This document shows positions 6,971 through 14,110 of a stretch of DNA of 64,000 nt, in pieces; position 1 is the stretch's first letter; every line of letters starts with the position of its first letter. The notes below the pieces were generated by a model. The model made no database searches and was not told where the DNA came from. It was given only the letters and a program-made list of their open reading frames with translations. The stretch is taken from positions 22,651 through 86,650 of the forward strand of contig JAJZVW010000015.1 of assembly GCA_021847015.1 (NCBI GenBank), given 5' to 3'. Source of the stretch: Pseudomonadota bacterium (lineage in GTDB: Bacteria; Pseudomonadota; Alphaproteobacteria; Rhodospirillales; Magnetospirillaceae). A program made the position numbers and the translations under genes.

Positions 6971-7568
6971 GGCGCACCCCCGCGAACCACACGACCCGGC
7001 GCAGGTTGGGGTCGTAGACGCTCTTCACCCGCTGCACCATGGGTGGCTTCGGGCCGGTGTACTTGGACCGCACGAAGCGGTAGCGGGCCGGGATTCCGGC
7101 GTTGCCGGTACCCTTGCCGGGCGTCACGAGGTGCAGATAACCGGCGCGGCACAGGTTGACGCAGTAGTCGGCGGCGTCCCCGGGATTGACGGGCGCCTCC
7201 TCGGTCGAGGCGGCGATCGCCAGGTCGCGCCACGACCAGTCCCCGGACAGCATCCGCATGGTTCGCCACATCTGTTCGCGGGCGGACCCCTGGATGACGG
7301 GCTTGCCGTCCTTCGTGACGCGCGGCGCCTCGACGCCGATGTCGCGGGAAAGGGTCCAGGACGGTGCGCCTCCAACGGCGCGGCGGATGTAGCCGGCCGC
7401 CTCCAGCCCCGTCAGGTAGCTGCGGATCGTCGTGGGGTGGATGTCGGTCGCATCGGCGATCGAGGCGACGGCGAAGCCGTCGCGCTGGCGCCGGATCTCC
7501 TCCCAGATGGCCTGGCGCCCCTGCGGCTTGCCGCCGGCCTGGGCCAGATGAACGGGCTTGCGGGCCAT
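6960..7568 (-). CDS. Phage winged-helix/HTH protein, 202 aa
   Basis: Residues 20-65 form a helix-turn-helix (IWEEIRRQRDGFAVASIADA, then DIHPTTIRSYLTGLEAAGYI), typical of a winged helix. A second helical part (residues 95-150) contains EQMWRTMRMLSGDWSWRDLA. The gene starts one base into the MuB stop, so it is coupled to MuB. It may be a regulator or a replication-associated DNA-binding protein. Confidence 0.68.
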   Translation of the reverse strand: MARKPVHLAQAGGKPQGRQAIWEEIRRQRDGFAVASIADATDIHPTTIRSYLTGLEAAGYIRRAVGGAPSWTLSRDIGVEAPRVTKDGKPVIQGSAREQMWRTMRMLSGDWSWRDLAIAASTEEAPVNPGDAADYCVNLCRAGYLHLVTPGKGTGNAGIPARYRFVRSKYTGPKPPMVQRVKSVYDPNLRRVVWFAGVRHDD

Positions 7569-8311
7569 CAGAACGTCCTCCGGGGCGGCGGATTGCCGGT
7601 GAAGAATTCGCCTCCCAGCCTCAACCATGTGGCCAGGTCGATTTCCTTGATGTCGGCCGCCTCGGCTTTTTCGCGCACCCGGTCCCAGTTGACGCAGATT
7701 CGCCGCACCGATCCGGCCGACTTTTCGTGCAGTTCCTTCTGCAGGTCGTCGGCCGTGACGACCCCCCGGCAGTACAGCTTCGCCAAGTGACGGGTGTCGG
7801 CCAGGGTTCCGGGTTCGGCGCCGACCCAGTCCAGCATGCGGCCGTGGACGCGCTCCCAGACCTTCAGCTTCTGGGGAAGCTGCTCCTCGCCGATCAGGAT
7901 GACGGTGCCCTGGCTCGACTCGTAGATGTCGCGCACCACCTCGATCATCCCCTTGGAGACCAGGAAGTCGGCCTCGTCGATGACCAGGGGGCGCCGGGAC
8001 AGGGACAGTTCCTGGCCGATCTGATCGACCATGTCGGGGATGGTCCCCGCCGGCTGCACGCCCATCTCCAGCAGGACCGCCAGGCACAGCTTCTTGCGGG
8101 TCCACACCGATTTCACCTGGACGTGGTAGGCGCGGTGCCGGTTGGCGGCGTAGATGGCGGCGAAGGTCTTGCCGTAGCCCGAGGGGCCGTGGAAACAGCC
8201 CATGCCGGGAAGGCCGGACGGCCGGTTGGCCACCCGCTCGACCAGATCGGCGAGCAGCGCCACGTTGCGCAGCGGCGCGACGGTGTTGACAGGAGAAACG
8301 TCGATGGTCAT
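7568..8311 (-). CDS. MuB-like ATPase, transposition target selector
   Basis: A 247-residue AAA+ ATPase with Walker A GPSGYGKT at residues 42-49 and Walker B LVIDEAD at 109-115. MuB binds target DNA, recruits it to the MuA transpososome and gives target immunity. It lies directly downstream of the transposase with a 68-base gap, as in all Mu relatives. Sensor-like residues follow Walker B (TVILIGEEQLPQKL). The ATG at 8311 is clear. Confidence 0.9.
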   Translation of the reverse strand: MTIDVSPVNTVAPLRNVALLADLVERVANRPSGLPGMGCFHGPSGYGKTFAAIYAANRHRAYHVQVKSVWTRKKLCLAVLLEMGVQPAGTIPDMVDQIGQELSLSRRPLVIDEADFLVSKGMIEVVRDIYESSQGTVILIGEEQLPQKLKVWERVHGRMLDWVGAEPGTLADTRHLAKLYCRGVVTADDLQKELHEKSAGSVRRICVNWDRVREKAEAADIKEIDLATWLRLGGEFFTGNPPPRRTF

Positions 8312-8379
8312 TATAGACACCTCAACTTCTTGTTGATCGCGGCGGTACGGCCATGGCACGGCCGGCCGCCGTTTTCCGT

Positions 8380-10572
8380 TCACGCGGTCAACACCGCGTC
8401 TCCGAAATCCTCGTAAAGCTTCCGTCGGCTGCGGATGTCCGGCAGGCGCGCCTGCCGCTCCGCCCACCGGCGGTCCTCGTCGCTGACGTCCTGGTCCGAG
8501 GCGAGACGCGTCTCGATATCCAGCACGCGGGCGAACCGTTCCTCGGGTGATTGCAGGGTGATGATCGGTGCGGGCGTGGCGATCTCCGCCTCCAGCCTCT
8601 GCAGCCGGACTTGCTCGGCGGCCGAGATGGGCTTGGCCTCGGGGGCCTTGCCATGCCGCGCCGCCTTGGATGCCTCGGCCAGGGCCGGGGTGGCATGCTC
8701 GGTCGCCCGGTGTGGCAGGCGCGCCAGCTTGCCGGCCGACTCGGCGCGGTCTTGCAGGATTTCGCGGACGATGTCCTTGGTGCCAGCAGCTTTCGCAGCT
8801 GCCTTGAGCGCGGCTTTCTCTTCGGCGATCGCCTTCTTTTGGACAGCCTTGCGCTTCGCGGCCAGTTCCTGGCGGCTGATACCCGTCCGCTCGGGGCATT
8901 CGGCGGTGCAGATGTAGGCGCCGTCCTCGTCGAAGACGTAGATCCGGCCGATGTCGGCCTCGTCCAGCCGCACCTGCGCCCGGCTGCCCTCCAGGCCGCC
9001 CATCTCCGGCGCCTCGAACAGGGCGTTGTCGATGCGGATGCCTTTCTTCGTGATGGTGCGGAAGCCGCCATCGCCGGGCGCCTCCGCCAGCAGCACGTCC
9101 AGCGCCCGCTCGTCGCTGATTGTGGCGACAGCGCCGGTCCACGACCGTTCCATCTCGAACGGGGTCTTGCCCTTCAGCCCCGAATGGGGGGCGTGGGCGT
9201 AGATGTTGTCGGTCCACTGGTCGCAGAAGTGCTGCAACTCGTCGGCCGTCATGCGCATCTCGACCTTCTCGCCCTGCCGCATCAGCCGCTGGGCGAAACT
9301 GCGCCGGGCCTCGATATCTTTGCGTTCCGCCACGCTGTGGCCGATGTATCCGGCGCACAGCTCCACCAGGTCGTGGCTGAACGTCCCCAGGCCGCGTTCG
9401 ATGAACGGCTTATGCTCGGGGGTGAAGGGGGGTGCCACGTCGCGTTCGATGGCCAGACCCCACGCGACCCGCTTGATGTGCTGGCTGACGTAGTCCGAGC
9501 CGTTGTCGGTGCCGATCTGCTCCGGCACGCCCCAGGCCAGCAGCGCGCGGCGCAGCACCGCCGCCACCGCGGCCGCCGAGCTTGACCGGCTGACCAGCAG
9601 CCGCATCCGCCGGGTGTAGACGTCGATCACGCCGACGATGACGTGGCGCAACCCGTCGGCGAGCAGCAGGTCGGCCTTGGTGCTGTCCAGTTCCCAGCGC
9701 TGGTTGATGCGCTGGATCATGGCGTCGGCGTCGCCGCCGGCGGCCTGGTAACGGGAACGCCAGGAATCGGGGTTGGTCACCGCCGCGAGAAGCTGTTTGT
9801 TCTCGTCCTTCCAGCTTTGCAGGAACCGCTGCACCGTGCGCAGGTTGGGGATGGAATCTTCGCCGAACCGGGCACGCAGGCCCTTCATCACCAGCCCAGC
9901 GCCGGCATGGGGATGGTCAAGCAGCATGCCCAGCAGGAACTGCTTCATCTCGGGGTTGCTGTCGATCCTGCCGGTGCCCTTGCGGTGCTGGCCGTACTTG
10001 GCGGCCAGGCCGGCCAGGCCGTGCCGGGCCAACTCGCGCCGCCAGTTCTCGACGCTGGCCCGGCAGCACGCCGGTATCTCGGCGCGCACCCAATCCTCGA
10101 CCGGAATGCGCCCGGCCGAGTACTCGCGGGCGAAGATGTCGGTGCCCCGCTTCAGCGGCAGCCCGTGCAGGCGGATGTAGCCGGCGCAGGAATCGATCGC
10201 CGCCGCCTTGGCTTCGGCCTCGCGCTGCTGGCCGGGCGAAAGGCGCATGAACTCCGCCAGTCCCGCCGTCCGCGCCGCCAGCGTGGCCCGCGCGTCCATC
10301 GCCTCGCCCAGCGCCGCCCGCATCCCCTCGGCGTGGCCGGCGGCGCACGCCTCGGCCAGCTCGTGGCGGGAGATCAGGAGCCGCGCTTCCTCGGGCAGGG
10401 CGGAGAGGGGATATTCGACTCCACCGCCGCGCCCGGAACGGGGGCGGAAGGTCCAGTCGTTTCGCTCGGCGAGGGCATTCACACCCCGCTTTGTGCAGGT
10501 CATGATCGCTGCCGGCACGCCGGCCGCCTTGGCGGCCTCGGCCCATTCGGCAGCGCTGCGCCACTCACGCAT
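8380..10572 (-). CDS. MuA-like DDE transposase
   Basis: The 730-residue protein has the N-terminal Mu-type DNA-binding domain (residues 1-60), middle helical DNA-binding domains and a DDE catalytic core. Likely catalytic residues are D296 (WELDSTKAD), D356 (TDNGSD) and E392 (KPFIERGLGTF). Residues from about 500 include the Mu-transposase C-terminal beta barrel (VRLDEADIGRIYVFDEDGAYI) and a charged helical tail that should contact MuB. Length and order agree with an intact gene. It catalyses replicative transposition and integration. Confidence 0.94.
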   Translation of the reverse strand: MREWRSAAEWAEAAKAAGVPAAIMTCTKRGVNALAERNDWTFRPRSGRGGGVEYPLSALPEEARLLISRHELAEACAAGHAEGMRAALGEAMDARATLAARTAGLAEFMRLSPGQQREAEAKAAAIDSCAGYIRLHGLPLKRGTDIFAREYSAGRIPVEDWVRAEIPACCRASVENWRRELARHGLAGLAAKYGQHRKGTGRIDSNPEMKQFLLGMLLDHPHAGAGLVMKGLRARFGEDSIPNLRTVQRFLQSWKDENKQLLAAVTNPDSWRSRYQAAGGDADAMIQRINQRWELDSTKADLLLADGLRHVIVGVIDVYTRRMRLLVSRSSSAAAVAAVLRRALLAWGVPEQIGTDNGSDYVSQHIKRVAWGLAIERDVAPPFTPEHKPFIERGLGTFSHDLVELCAGYIGHSVAERKDIEARRSFAQRLMRQGEKVEMRMTADELQHFCDQWTDNIYAHAPHSGLKGKTPFEMERSWTGAVATISDERALDVLLAEAPGDGGFRTITKKGIRIDNALFEAPEMGGLEGSRAQVRLDEADIGRIYVFDEDGAYICTAECPERTGISRQELAAKRKAVQKKAIAEEKAALKAAAKAAGTKDIVREILQDRAESAGKLARLPHRATEHATPALAEASKAARHGKAPEAKPISAAEQVRLQRLEAEIATPAPIITLQSPEERFARVLDIETRLASDQDVSDEDRRWAERQARLPDIRSRRKLYEDFGDAVLTA

Positions 10573-10611
10573 GGGGCACCTCCCGGCCGCATCCGGCCGC
10601 CACTAGGGCGG

Positions 10612-10673
10612 TGACGGCCGGACTGCCTTCCCCTATGGTTGTGGCTGTCAAGACACACGAACCACCGGGGGAA
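10612..10673 (+). promoter_or_regulatory. Promoter-leader repeat, copy 1
   Basis: A 62-base segment upstream of the 69-residue + strand gene is repeated with few changes at 11661-11722. It contains TGACGG, a 16-base gap and TATGGT, a plausible sigma70 promoter. A leader ending in the purine-rich GGGGGAA that serves as ribosome site follows. The promoter reading is inference; the repeat is seen directly. Confidence 0.6.
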
Positions 10674-10678
10674 GCGGG

Positions 10679-10888
10679 ATGGCTTATTTGAACGATGAAA
10701 AGGCCTTCGACATCGCCGTGCGGATCTTCGAGGCCAATATTAGGGCGGGTCAGGCGAAGACCTGGGATCGCCTCCTTGAGGAAATCCCGGACATCCTTCC
10801 CCAGATCTTCGACAAGGTTCAGCTTGCCTGGGATGCGTGTCCGCGCGTGAACCCCTTGGGCATCGTCGACTTCAACGAGGGCAAGTAG
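10679..10888 (+). CDS. Small acidic phage protein, 69 aa (moron)
   Basis: It starts at 10679, 5 bases after the GGGGGAA of the shared leader. The 69-residue product is helical and acidic (AFDIAVRIFEANIRAGQAKT, then WDRLLEEIPDILPQIF). Its 3' end overlaps the convergent 60-residue gene by 70 bases. Opposite orientation to the early operon and its own promoter repeat suggest expression in the lysogen. The function is unknown. Confidence 0.6.
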   Translation: MAYLNDEKAFDIAVRIFEANIRAGQAKTWDRLLEEIPDILPQIFDKVQLAWDACPRVNPLGIVDFNEGK

Positions 10889-11001
10889 ACCTCGCGCATG
10901 CCGCCCGGGTTGAGGCACAGAATTCGCCAGACCCGGGCTGCGTCCTCGGGATTGGCCAGCGCCCAATCGGCCAGGGCGCGCGCCTTCATCTCGTCGTCCA
11001 T
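10819..11001 (-). CDS. Small phage protein, 60 aa
   Basis: The ATG at 11001 has a near-perfect ribosome site (AAAGGAGG), the main support for this gene. The product is helical at the N-terminus (MKARALADWALANPEDAARV). The last 20 residues lie over the 3' end of the convergent + strand gene. No family recognised; it belongs to the leftward early operon upstream of the transposase. Confidence 0.55.
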   Translation of the reverse strand: MDDEMKARALADWALANPEDAARVWRILCLNPGGMREVYLPSLKSTMPKGFTRGHASQAS

Positions 11002-11022
11002 TCGGTCCTCCTTTCTGGGTGA

Positions 11023-11517
11023 TCATGGCCGCCCTCCCCGGAACAGCGGCAGGCTGCCTATCAGCCGCCGTTGTTCGGCCTTGGCGAAGCGAATGAACAG
11101 CGCCAGGCGGTCCAGGCGCGACCGCACCAGGTCGGCGCTCTCGGTGACGGCGCACCCCGACGCCTCGGCCAAGCCCTGCAACAGGACCGAATTGCCCAGC
11201 GCGGCGCAGAACGCCGGCACCAGGTGGGCCGGAAGCGCGTGGGGCCGGCTGGCGCCGGTCCACGAATCGATCATCGCCTTGGTGACGCGCCGGCCGGCAT
11301 GGAAGCTGACGGCTTCCGCCAGCGCCTCGCGGTTGGCGAACGGGCCGGCCGCGATGGCGTCGTTGAGCAGCCGGCGCAGGCGCTGGTCCAGGTCCAGCGC
11401 CCCGGCGTCGCGGCGGCGTTCCGGCGCGGGCGGAAGCGCCACCGCGCCTTCGAGCAGGGACAGGAAATCGGTCTGCCGGGGATCGGCCGACCGGCCCTTT
11501 TGGGCTCTTCTGGTCAT
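11023..11517 (-). CDS. Phage HTH-like protein of the early operon
   Basis: The 164-residue protein has a region (about residues 40-125) of the type LDQRLRRLLNDAIAAGPFAN followed by REALAEAVSFHAGRRVTKAM and a C-terminal helical part. Similar helical modules are common between ner and the transposase in transposable phages and look DNA-binding. The ATG at 11517 has GAGAGG upstream. A leftward terminator-like hairpin lies just before it, so its expression may need read-through or a weak promoter of its own. Confidence 0.62.
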   Translation of the reverse strand: MTRRAQKGRSADPRQTDFLSLLEGAVALPPAPERRRDAGALDLDQRLRRLLNDAIAAGPFANREALAEAVSFHAGRRVTKAMIDSWTGASRPHALPAHLVPAFCAALGNSVLLQGLAEASGCAVTESADLVRSRLDRLALFIRFAKAEQRRLIGSLPLFRGGRP

Positions 11518-11541
11518 GTTGGCCTCTCGGGTTTGCAGGCG

Positions 11542-11584
11542 AAAAAAGAGGCCGGACGGGCTCTGTGCACCACCGCGTCCGGCC
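11542..11584 (-). terminator. Leftward rho-independent terminator inside the early operon
   Basis: The perfect 9-base arms GGCCGGACG (11550-11558) and CGTCCGGCC (11576-11584) are separated by 17 bases. In the leftward transcript they are followed by CTTTTTT. It lies between the Ner-side genes and the 164-residue gene. It could stop early transcription before the transposase genes or act as a regulated attenuator. Confidence 0.7.
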
Positions 11585-11660
11585 TTGAGGTTGACAGAGA
11601 GAGAGGCGGCGATGCCCTGCCGCCGGAAACGGCCGGCCGCCGTGCGGTCATGGCGACGCA

Positions 11661-11722
11661 TGACGGCCGGCCGGCTTTCCCCTATGGTTGTGGTTGTCGA
11701 GACGCACGAACCACCGGGGGAA
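11661..11722 (+). promoter_or_regulatory. Promoter-leader repeat, copy 2
   Basis: Second copy of the 62-base segment at 10612-10673, again TGACGG, 16 bases, TATGGT and a GGGGGAA leader. It stands directly upstream of the zinc-ribbon + strand gene at 11729. The differences between copies are a handful of substitutions with no gaps. Confidence 0.6.
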
Positions 11723-11728
11723 ACGGAA

Positions 11729-12151
11729 ATGGCTGAAGGAAATGGCGATCTCGCGCTGTATCGGTGCGCTTCCCGCGGCTGCGGCTTCGCCACCACGGCG
11801 CCGTACAACTTCTGCCCACAATGCGGCGCCACGCTGTACTTGTACGAAGGCGAGAAGGGGGTCGGACCATCGGTCCGGGTCAACTTCGAGCCGTCGAACT
11901 GCGATTTTGCGTGGAAATGCTCGCTCACGGAGAATTACCGCCATGATTGTGAAGAACTGCGCGTGACGCACCGCTGCGTGGTGGCTATCCTCGAATCGAT
12001 CGAAGGGTTAGAAGCCGAGATCCGGCGGCTGCACGCAGCGTTTTGGGAAGCGGGCCTTGCGGCACCTCCACGACCAGATCGTCGCCTACGAGATCGGCCA
12101 GCTCCGGCGCGGAAAAGAAGGCCCCCTGAATCTTCACCCCCTTGCGGGTGA
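11729..12151 (+). CDS. Zinc-ribbon phage protein (moron)
   Basis: It starts at the ATG at 11729 after the shared leader. Residues 12-36 form a zinc ribbon (CASRGCGF, then FCPQCGATL), and further cysteines follow (CDFAWKC, DC, RC). Residues 85-115 form an amphipathic helix (ILESIEGLEAEIRRLHAAFW). The final 55 codons overlap a convergent gene by 167 bases and become Arg/Pro-rich, so the true C-terminus may be disturbed. The role is unknown; its own promoter suggests lysogenic expression. Confidence 0.6.
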   Translation: MAEGNGDLALYRCASRGCGFATTAPYNFCPQCGATLYLYEGEKGVGPSVRVNFEPSNCDFAWKCSLTENYRHDCEELRVTHRCVVAILESIEGLEAEIRRLHAAFWEAGLAAPPRPDRRLRDRPAPARKRRPPESSPPCG

Positions 12152-12170
12152 CCCGGCGCGGGATGTTCAT
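11985..12170 (-). CDS. Small phage protein, 61 aa
   Basis: The ATG at 12170 overlaps the stop of the upstream gene by 4 bases (ATGA), typical of this operon. It is basic at the start and then has AFFSAPELADLVGDDLVVEVP. Its whole length lies antisense to the 3' part of the zinc-ribbon gene, so one of the two C-termini may not be functional. No family recognised. Confidence 0.5.
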   Translation of the reverse strand: MNIPRRVTRKGVKIQGAFFSAPELADLVGDDLVVEVPQGPLPKTLRAAAGSRLLTLRSIRG

Positions 12171-12418
12171 GCTGCCCCCTCCTCCGTCAGCGCCTCTTCC
12201 GTCCGTGCCACCAGGCGCTGCAGCGTGGCGCCGGCCTCGCCGACCCTGACCCTCCCCTCCAAGAGGTCCAGGTACAGCAGGGTGATCTCTCCGGACGGCT
12301 CGCGCACCCGCCCGCCGTTCTTGGCGCGAACCCGCTGACGGGCGATGGTGAGGATGGACTGGGCGGTGAAGCCCATGGACTTGGCGTCCTTCACGACGTC
12401 ATCGAGCTTGCTGTTCAC
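12167..12418 (-). CDS. Phage hypothetical protein, 83 aa
   Basis: GTG start overlapping the Ner-like gene's TGA by 4 bases. The helical, charged product (KLDDVVKDAKSMGFTAQSIL) may bind DNA, because its spacing resembles a short HTH. It is the second gene of the leftward early operon. The family is not recognised. Confidence 0.58.
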   Translation of the reverse strand: MNSKLDDVVKDAKSMGFTAQSILTIARQRVRAKNGGRVREPSGEITLLYLDLLEGRVRVGEAGATLQRLVARTEEALTEEGAA

Positions 12419-12738
12419 GCTGCCGCCTCCTCTTCGACATTGCGCCCGGCAGGGCGCGTGTTACGCTGCGGTTCGCGGGTCCAGCCCAGTCGCTTACCGT
12501 CCTCGGTGAACCGCTCGGGGAATAGCTGCTGGGGTGTTAGGCCGAGGGCCTCCGCTATGACCGTCTCCAGGTGCGAGGACGGGTTTCCCAGCGCATGGCT
12601 CATCGCCTGCTGTGACACCCCGTTTTCCACCGCCAAGCGGCGTAGTGAGGTGCCCCTGAGGCGAAGGTTGACCCAAATCCACAACCGCCGCTCGGCGGGA
12701 TTTTTTGGGACTTGGTGGCTTGTTGAGGCTTTCGTCAT
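12415..12738 (-). CDS. ner: Ner-like HTH regulator, first gene of the early operon
   Basis: The 107-residue protein (start at the ATG at 12738; an in-frame codon at 12768 is less likely) has a Ner/Nlp-type HTH. The HTH is LRLRGTSLRRLAVENGVSQQ followed by AMSHALGNPSSHLETVIAEA and the typical LGLTPQQLFPERF. Ner shuts down early and repressor promoters during lytic growth of Mu. It is divergent from the repressor gene across a 164-base region with palindromic sites. Confidence 0.8.
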   Translation of the reverse strand: MTKASTSHQVPKNPAERRLWIWVNLRLRGTSLRRLAVENGVSQQAMSHALGNPSSHLETVIAEALGLTPQQLFPERFTEDGKRLGWTREPQRNTRPAGRNVEEEAAA

Positions 12739-12751
12739 GGACAAGTGTATA

Positions 12752-13010
12752 GCCCAAATCTGGGCCACAGCGCAAGCTCACATTTGCGCGCTTGCTGGGA
12801 TTCCCAGTTCACATATGGCTGGAATTAGGATGAAGTGCCGAAAGACGTGGGATTTCAAGGCACTATCGATCAGCGGGTGTAACCCGGAACTGGGAATCCA
12901 TCATGCCCACTTCTAGCCCAGATCTGGGAATCCGGTTAGCAGAGGTCGCGAAGCTGTTAGGGGGCCACGCTAAGGCGGCCAATCTGATGGGAGTGTCGCT
13001 ATCCCAGTTC
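12752..13010. promoter_or_regulatory. Operator cluster between ner and the repressor
   Basis: Several related sites occur: GCCCAAATCTGGGC (12752-12765), CTGGGATTCCCAG (12795-12807), GAACTGGGAATCC (12887-12899), CCCAGATCTGGG (12917-12928, a perfect palindrome inside the repressor's first codons) and ATCCCAGTTC (13001-13010). The shared half-site is CCCAG or its complement. Position and repetition suggest binding sites for the repressor, Ner, or both. Confidence 0.65.
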
Positions 13011-13481
13011 AAACGTTATGTGGCCGGCGAGAATCAGCCCACATTCGAGGCGATATCGAACTTGCTGCGACATGGCGGTATCGATCTTGGGTGGCTGGCA
13101 ACGGGAGAGGGCCAAATGCGGGCTGCGCCACGTACCCTCGCCGAAGCGGCCAGCGCCGCCGGGTTGGAGCGGGCACCGACATCCGCCGAAGCGGCGGCCG
13201 GACAGCGGTTTGTGCCGGCCGTCACCACTCCGTCAATGGCCGTTGATGGCGAATTGAACGCCCGCATCGTCGAGGCGGTCGCCGCGACCTACAAGGACGT
13301 GGGTGGCGCCATCAGCCCTCGCGATCTCGGCCGCGTCGCTGCGGAGATCTACAACGACGTGGTCGCCGCCGGTCTCGAAACCTGGGATGAGAAGATGGTG
13401 GCCTTGCGCGTGGCCATCGGCCAGCTCCGCCGCCGCCTTTTGACGGCCCCGGCGCCTGGCGAAGACAAACGGCTGGCCTGA
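12903..13481 (+). CDS. Phage repressor, HTH without a visible peptidase domain
   Basis: The 192-residue protein has a lambda-type HTH in residues 8-50 (LAEVAKLLGGHAKAANLMGV, then SLSQFKRYVAGENQP). The following GGIDLGWLATGEG is typical of phage repressors. Unlike S24-family repressors there is no Ser-Lys protease signature in the C-terminal half, which is helical (DLGRVAAEIYNDVVAAGLET). It should keep the early promoter silent in the lysogen. It is divergent from ner, as c is in Mu. Confidence 0.8.
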   Translation: MPTSSPDLGIRLAEVAKLLGGHAKAANLMGVSLSQFKRYVAGENQPTFEAISNLLRHGGIDLGWLATGEGQMRAAPRTLAEAASAAGLERAPTSAEAAAGQRFVPAVTTPSMAVDGELNARIVEAVAATYKDVGGAISPRDLGRVAAEIYNDVVAAGLETWDEKMVALRVAIGQLRRRLLTAPAPGEDKRLA

Positions 13482-13755
13482 GGCCGGTTCGTACGGCCCC
13501 GCCGGATCATCGCCCACCTGGCGCGCTTTGGGTATGCCGTAAGATATACATACGAATGGGCATTGCGGTGGCCCAGGAGTGGGTGTCGTGCCCCGTCAAC
13601 GACGATGTCGCGCCCGAAAATCTGGAGCTGACAGCCCTCCCCCTCGCCGTCGGCGCCGAAAGCCAGCATCTCCGCGCTCTCCGTCCCACCCGGTCCCGCT
13701 TTATCCCGCCTCATCCGGGGCGCCGCGTTGGTCCAGTGGTATGTGTCGTGTCACA
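13482..13755. other. Prophage left-end region, putative transposase sites
   Basis: No convincing gene is seen between the repressor stop and the presumed phage end. Reading inward from the end, the first bases are TGTGACACGACACATACCAC (13755 to 13736). A related block GGGGCACGACACCCACTCC lies about 165 bases inside (13592 to 13574). Repeated CACGACAC blocks are what MuA end-binding sites L1 and L2 would look like. The exact end (CA at 13754-13755) is inferred from where host coding sequence stops. Confidence 0.5.
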
Positions 13756-13890
13756 GGAGATCATGCCTTTCTCGTGAAGGCGGTCCATCGCATTCCAGTC
13801 GAACCCCTTCCACGCCCGGCAGCCGTCATGCAGGCCGAGCAGCAGGAGCGCCAAAACGGCGTCGTCGATGCGGTCGGTGTCGATGTCCAT
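13756..13890 (-). pseudogene. DUF6429-like host gene cut by the prophage
   Basis: From the ATG at 13890 (GGAGGAAG upstream) the first 43 or so residues match the DUF6429 small-protein family (MDIDTDRIDDAVLALLLLGL, then HDGCRAWKGFDWNAMDRLHE and KGMI). The match stops at KGMI and the frame then runs into the phage end sequence to a stop at 13711. Family members are longer, about 75-80 residues. The missing 3' part should be at the other end of the prophage, outside this window. Confidence 0.65.
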
Positions 13891-14110
13891 GGCCGTCTTC
13901 CTCCGTTCCTTGGTGGTCGGCTTGAGTCTGCCGGTTCTTGGCCGAACGGCAGGGAGTGCCAAGAAAATAGAGACGCCGCACCGCTCCCTGGGAATGACCG
14001 GCACCAGTAAGGTGCATATGGCACTGCCGGGGGTCTTGGAGGGCTGCCACTTTGCGGTCTTTACGTAAATCCGGCGGCACCACGTCCTTAATCTTGCGAT
14101 CGCTGTTGCC

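Follow-up and report, generated by a model that had tools for sequence, protein, structure and literature searches.

The way in which phages acquire variable genes such as morons has been called mysterious, and the cited portions of the same source recognise no recombinase target common to the variable regions of Mu-like Pseudomonas phages (PMC4378225). For T4 gene e and I-TevI, longer transcripts are reported, in the portions cited here, to be poorly translated (PMC3014915, PMC2988022). In Pseudomonas phage Fc02, the gene olg1 lies on the forward strand, antisense to early gene 10; it is apparently carried on the repressor transcript of the lysogen, and olg1 from a plasmid excludes phages (PMC9936078, cited in part).

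We analysed a stretch of 64,000 nucleotides from a bacterium of the Magnetospirillaceae (contig JAJZVW010000015.1), henceforth referred to as the window. The original prediction was that two + strand prophage genes in this window share a nearly identical 62-bp promoter-leader, forming a modular cassette with swappable cargo that may be expressed in the lysogen. The repeat was borne out: positions 10612-10677 and 11661-11726 are 89% identical over 66 nt, and the motifs described (TGACGG, a 16-base gap, TATGGT and GGGGGAA) are found in both copies. The 17-mer TTCCCCTATGGTTGTGG occurs twice in the window, whereas 100 shuffles of the window gave an average of 0.07 occurrences and never two, which ruled out a chance repeat. 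Each copy directly precedes a + strand ORF within a Mu-like early region on the - strand. With moderate confidence, we read the 62-bp repeat as the core of a promoter-leader module of ~100 bp that would drive swappable small genes against the early operon, probably in the lysogen.

The early region encodes a MuA-like transposase (8380-10572, -), head-to-head with copy 1, an AAA protein (~7568-8365, -), a 164-aa early protein without a Pfam match (gp164; 11023-11517, -), head-to-head with copy 2, and an HTH_35 protein (12415-12768, -). An HTH protein is encoded on the + strand (12903-13481). From Mu gene order, we take the AAA, HTH_35 and HTH proteins to be MuB-like, Ner-like and repressor-like, respectively. 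Copy 2 sits 770 bp after the cargo of copy 1, with gp164 in between. The similarity of the window to locus L009 resumes at ~12403, past the exchanged segment and near the HTH_35 gene. Between copy 2 and gp164, a GC-rich hairpin (11542-11590, -; -24.7 kcal/mol) is followed by TTTTTT on the early strand. A similar hairpin precedes the gp164 homologue of locus L029, where no cassette sits, and a generic scan did not list the hairpin of the window. The position immediately before the MuA gene is taken by gp153 (L003:160-621, -) in some phages and by gp164 in others; gp153 has a weak match, below the cut-off, to the phage CII-like regulator PF06892.

Each window copy is a nested double inverted repeat in which pairing begins further upstream than the 62-bp repeat, at ~10592 and ~11630. 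In the first hairpin (hp1), a motif near -60 pairs with the -35 and the spacer, and in the second (hp2) one arm holds the -10 box and the other the Shine-Dalgarno. For copy 1, hp1 spans 10592-10622 (arms 10592-10603 and 10611-10622, delimited from sequence, folds and partner tests). The -35 TGAC lies within its second arm, and one opposition is C.A on the cargo strand and G.U on the early strand. The predicted promoter of copy 1 (10612-10639, +), placed by sequence and by its family-wide position, comprises TGACGG (10612-10617) and TATGGT (10634-10639) with a spacer of 16 bases, or 17 with the hexamer read as GTGACG. In hp2 of copy 1 (10628-10673, +), TTCCCCT (10628-10634) and TGGTT (10636-10640) face AACCA (10660-10664) and GGGGGAA (10667-10673), the latter being the Shine-Dalgarno. 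For copy 2, the same kinds of evidence place hp1 at 11630-11673 (outer arms ~11630-11641 and 11662-11673) and the predicted promoter at 11661-11688 (+; TGACGG 11661-11666, TATGGT 11683-11688), and hp2 spans 11677-11722 (+), with TTCCCCT (11677-11683) and TGGTT (11685-11689) facing AACCA (11709-11713) and GGGGGAA (11716-11722). The module promoter is predicted to be of the sigma70 type. A generic promoter scan did not include the predicted promoter of copy 1 among the sites given. A known Rfam RNA family was rejected because the Rfam search over 9000-14000 returned only four sub-threshold matches and none above the gathering threshold.

The 69-residue acidic protein expected behind copy 1 was confirmed as an ORF at 10679-10888 (+) with a pI of 4.5. 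It is antisense to the early operon and groups weakly into one family with those of L146 and L045. Behind copy 2, where a zinc-ribbon protein was expected, stands a 140-aa ORF containing CxxC (11729-12151, +) that is zinc-ribbon-like, its zinc-ribbon match being below the cut-off (E 0.055). The two cargos belong to separate sequence families, so the description of them as unrelated stands. In the protein collection, the cargo of copy 2 has a single homologue, P0002 (75% identity), and the N-terminal extension predicted for P0002 resembles translated leader. The AlphaFold model of the copy 2 cargo is poor (pLDDT 44). A 61-aa ORF that overlaps the end of this cargo (11985-12170, -) matches the C-terminal domain of Mu transposases (PF09299, E 2e-5) and may have been shortened by the cassette. 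A simple terminator scan, which misses long-loop hairpins, gave no terminator directly 3' of the window cargos; its single site over 10400-13000 was 12685-12698, ~530 bp past the second cargo.

An exact long pattern had no match in IMG/VR. An exact 17-mer from one arm retrieved three IMG/VR contigs. The pattern specified neither the -35 nor the second arm, yet all three contigs have a second arm that fits and a -35 at an unchanged distance. Further early finds were L012 and, from the genome collection, L024, L026 (two copies) and L028. A first covariance model built from 11 copies was run on loci near relatives of the ParB-like protein (L040-L114, 75/76 loci), on L029 and L030, and on 31 loci near gp164 relatives. 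A second model built from 26 copies was run on 94 loci and on the family of the host, and the L052 copy was spotted by eye. We dropped 8 of 10 stretches (L013-L020) by eye as AT-rich or out of context, and L025 and L027 from 5 contigs for having no right arm. Duplicates were removed (L151, the same as L026b; L163, as L026a; L155, as L028; L069, as L068). The distinct copies kept number 42, with the degenerate L041 and L062 outside this set. Three are in the genome of the window and the others in IMG/VR phages and further genomes. The third copy of the window's genome lies on contig C3 in a second Mu-like prophage, opposite a ParB_N protein and an HTH_35 (presumably Ner-like) protein. The check proposed with the original prediction, a search for the leader in other phages, thus yielded 40 more distinct copies beyond the window pair, some of them with weaker support.

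In the Magnetospirillaceae, the module was found in 14 of 55 genomes (the genome of the window counted) across 13 of 17 genera. A class-wide sample screened with the first model and stricter filters gave 2 positives out of 385, again counting the window's genome. The regions of five annotated phages (RC1, RS1, HS6, MuM16-1 and TAB03) contained no module, and a DNA search of annotated phages with 10500-12200 returned 20 records, whose short matches account for 2-3% of the query. Among the matches listed from the openly licensed literature, the module is absent from titles and abstract openings on transposable-phage morons, promoters, hairpins and accessory-gene swaps.

A promoter-like sequence is found at a kept position across the family: the -35 TGAC is exactly placed in 31 of the 42 copies and a TAnnnT -10 occurs in 40, a count partly imposed by the anchor used. 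Cargos were obtained for 36 of the 42 copies and grouped into 18 sequence families (E < 5e-3); the remaining copies either had no credible cargo (L011, L061, L126) or had none extracted (L160, L162, L165). Wherever early genes were recognised within 3.5 kb, in 41 of 41 copies, the cargo runs antisense to these Mu-like genes, with all hits of the early-gene queries on the opposite strand (L162 has no such match in that distance and is outside the count). The nearest upstream early gene is gp164 (15 copies), gp153 (13), a ParB-like gene (9), MuA (1) or none in reach (3). In 35 of 35 comparable cargos, GC content is lower than that of the 825 bp upstream, by 8.2 points on average.

The cargos of L003, L010, L012, L046, L051 and L116 form one family. 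Via L012 this family reaches phrog_33093 (unknown function) and, with 28% identity, a gene present in Pseudomonas phages including JBD25 and TAB03. The TAB03 relative lies opposite the transposase, two genes after an annotated regulator. No module cargo obtained a firm assignment from Pfam (11 cargos searched), PHROGs (10, one being the protein of L009 site A, which has a leader of its own) or PADLOC (10), apart from phrog_33093 for L012. Cargos are dead, decayed or absent in L061, L062, L041 and L011, yet the hairpins are kept. In the cargo-less copy of L041 (1797-1842, -), hp2 has turned into a hairpin followed by TTTTTT on the cargo strand and hp1 is kept. L165 has a long, well-paired hp2 and no good -10 hexamer, with a Shine-Dalgarno and an ATG still downstream. 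At the MuA site of L009 (3590-4090, -), a 166-aa antisense ORF (phrog_1244) stands behind an unrelated leader, which also pairs with its Shine-Dalgarno; the left arm there is the complement of the MuA ribosome site.

We compared 14 locus pairs chosen by hand. All 10 different-cargo pairs with upstream similarity beyond the module (at least 134 bp) break inside the leader, no further than +65 from the -10 T (four within +1 to +5 and six within +36 to +65), and in most of them similarity comes back near the next early genes. L158 and L164, two contigs of one genome, diverge at +1. Copy 1/L026a and L120/L152 have just 58-80 bp in common upstream, with ends at +40 and +50. L009 and L120 have the same cargo and remain similar to +538, and L012 and L146 have the element alone in common. 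In the module-free relative L029, a gp164-like ORF overlaps the start of the MuA gene, giving the gp164-MuA order without a cassette. The regions shown for RC1, RS1, HS6 and MuM16-1 have no annotated antisense gene between the first early gene and the transposase. The reading as a modular cassette with swappable cargo holds because the copies form a family with antisense cargo in 41/41, 18 cargo families and breakpoints within the leader, and the lower cargo GC also bears it out. Leader homology would be what recombination uses for cargo exchange. The module likely lets cargo be exchanged and expressed apart from the lytic programme.

The most distinctive part of the module is its two predicted hairpins, hp1 and hp2, which covary. 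The hp2 arms of the window (TTCCCC-TAT-GGTT with AACC-GGGGAA) are replaced elsewhere by CTCGG/CCGAG, CATCGG/CCGATG, CGTCGG/CCGACG and GGTGG/CCACC. We paired each arm with its own partner and with the partner of every other element, and assessed the difference with 20000 permutations. On the cargo strand of the 42 copies, own partners gave -18.3 kcal/mol against -16.0 for cross pairings in hp2, and -22.3 against -19.0 in hp1; no permutation was as good in either case. The same 0/20000 was obtained for both hairpins on both strands, and also on 24 copies below 72% identity, which reduces the effect of relatedness and does not remove it. Control pairings of non-partner arms had no signal (4590 and 8906 of 20000). 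Pair counts support this in part: in the model alignment of 26 copies, 13 cells of hp2 changed on both sides, compared with 4.1 in shuffles (0/500). The paired cells, the double-change cells and the covariation score of hp2 were above all 500 shuffles, its number of double-change pairs was matched by 116 of 500 and its further pair types by 341 of 500. With the early strand simply aligned by MAFFT, RNAalifold recovered just 4 pairs, which we put down to the alignment.

These arms suggest how the cargo might be kept apart from its surroundings. Transcription would start 6-8 nt after TATGGT. Because this start lies just after TATGGT, RNA from the module's own promoter would lack the 5' arm of hp2 and have a freer Shine-Dalgarno, whereas RNA entering from upstream would fold hp2 and mask it, on the pattern of T4 gene e and I-TevI. 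Assuming this start site, the predicted unpaired fraction of the Shine-Dalgarno in 30 elements is 0.09 for read-through RNA and 0.52 for RNA from ~+12. Accessibility is predicted to be higher in own-promoter RNA in 29 of the 30, and the exception, L119, contradicts the prediction (0.58 vs 0.26). Because hp2 would hide the Shine-Dalgarno of read-through RNA, we propose that cargo is translated solely from its own promoter, whatever adjoins it after a random Mu-type insertion or a cargo swap. We know of no source of read-through on the cargo strand. We infer that the module insulates the cargo and gives lysogenic expression; for the latter, the basis is the promoter-like sequence, its orientation and the Fc02 precedent (PMC9936078).

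The strands of the module are not equivalent. With composition controlled, hp1 is more stable as early-strand than as cargo-strand RNA (mean z -3.24 vs -1.72, p 7e-9; p 3e-4 on 24 representatives), a preference that is unexplained by a T4-like model; hp2 has no preference for cargo-strand RNA (p 0.38). Partner specificity is higher on the early strand for both hairpins (hp1 z -10.8 vs -7.4; hp2 -7.7 vs -6.6). Predicted early-strand folds contain both hairpins, with at least 8 pairs each, in 41 of 42 copies, compared with 39 of 42 on the cargo strand, and the cargo-less L041 and the decayed L062 keep both in their predicted early-strand folds. The strand preference of hp1 and the folds would thus place the selective force on the early transcript or on both strands, and RNA selection may act mainly on the early transcript. 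The stability of hp1, the partner specificity and the folds favour a rival explanation, in which the selected structure is an early-strand RNA with two hairpins before the next early gene (gp164, gp153, ParB-like or MuA) and the cargo promoter is merely nested in it. Such an RNA could antiterminate in the manner of HK022 put, direct processing or stabilise 5' ends, and it would allow an essential operon to accommodate a backwards cargo. The put RNA likewise has two stem-loops, in ~70 nt, but put sites lie at most ~270 nt downstream of early promoters and the module is deeper in the operon (PMC9378689, cited in part). Moreover, the -35, -10, Shine-Dalgarno and start codon are kept at a spacing that serves the cargo strand, the module-free L029 retains the gp164-MuA order, and early-strand hp1 is on average without a U-tract: over 29 copies, including one that was mis-anchored, the following 10 nt contain a mean of 1.7 T. 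We regard this rival as tentative. As an early-strand intrinsic terminator, hp1 is unlikely for most copies given the absence of a U-tract on average; L052, with a T run after hp1 on that strand, is a possible exception. Two to four T come after hp1 on the cargo strand, where it may be a weak terminator.

The inverted repeats surround the promoter and the breakpoints fall within the leader, as might be expected if the repeats were DNA sites, either as the operator through which a dimeric regulator controls the cargo promoter or as the target of a cassette-swapping recombinase. However, the arm sequences vary widely while pairing is maintained, the loop lengths are variable, and arm lengths often differ because of the TAT in the -10 box. 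The strand asymmetry of hp1 is unexpected for a DNA site, and no module copy lies directly after a cargo within the window; we consider this explanation improbable. The 89% identity of the window copies would also fit a recent leader duplication in one prophage without wider meaning, but the forty further distinct copies have diverged with their pairing kept, and this explanation is scarcely credible. A promoter-leader module for exchangeable cargo remains our preferred reading; in it hp1 might, as a guess, protect or insulate the start of the early gene that follows. It is possible, if doubtful, that the module is two-faced, being both a self-insulating promoter-leader for interchangeable lysogeny genes and an early-strand two-hairpin RNA that keeps the essential operon working although it contains a backwards gene, and that it would be a general docking site.

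The exchange point is marked by a module that is shared and can be searched for, so that the exchange and its regulation become testable. A covariance model of the module pulls out unknown cargo genes, and the cargos (18 families, with no firm function in our scans) are candidate lysogeny, exclusion or counter-defence proteins. If the two-faced reading is true, Mu-like phages would have a general docking site by which they trade accessory genes.

Unlike an integron gene cassette, the elements in the window and in scans of its own genome have one copy before each cargo and no attC-like copy after each cassette. The two hairpins, predicted on the early strand in 41/42 copies, resemble the two stem-loops of HK022 put RNA in early transcripts (PMC9378689, cited in part); the module differs in being longer, in lying away from the early promoter and in having arm sequences that are not conserved. 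Like the cargos, olg1 and olg2 of Pseudomonas phage Fc02 are small genes on the forward strand that run antisense to an early gene in a transposable phage; those of Fc02 are apparently transcribed in the lysogen (PMC9936078, cited in part). The cargos also resemble morons as described in the cited portions of PMC4378225: they are small genes that stand singly, have a lower GC content, separate genes that adjoin each other in relatives and have a predicted promoter of their own. Unlike morons, ~18 unrelated cargo families share one structured promoter-leader, the cargo runs against the early genes in every copy that allowed the comparison, and an own terminator was not detected by a simple scan. 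As in T4 gene e and I-TevI, the module forms, here as a prediction, a hairpin with the promoter on its 5' side and the Shine-Dalgarno on its 3' side (PMC3014915 and PMC2988022, cited in part). It differs from them in its predicted sigma70-type promoter, its occurrence in Mu-like phages, its use of one module for many cargos and its second hairpin upstream.
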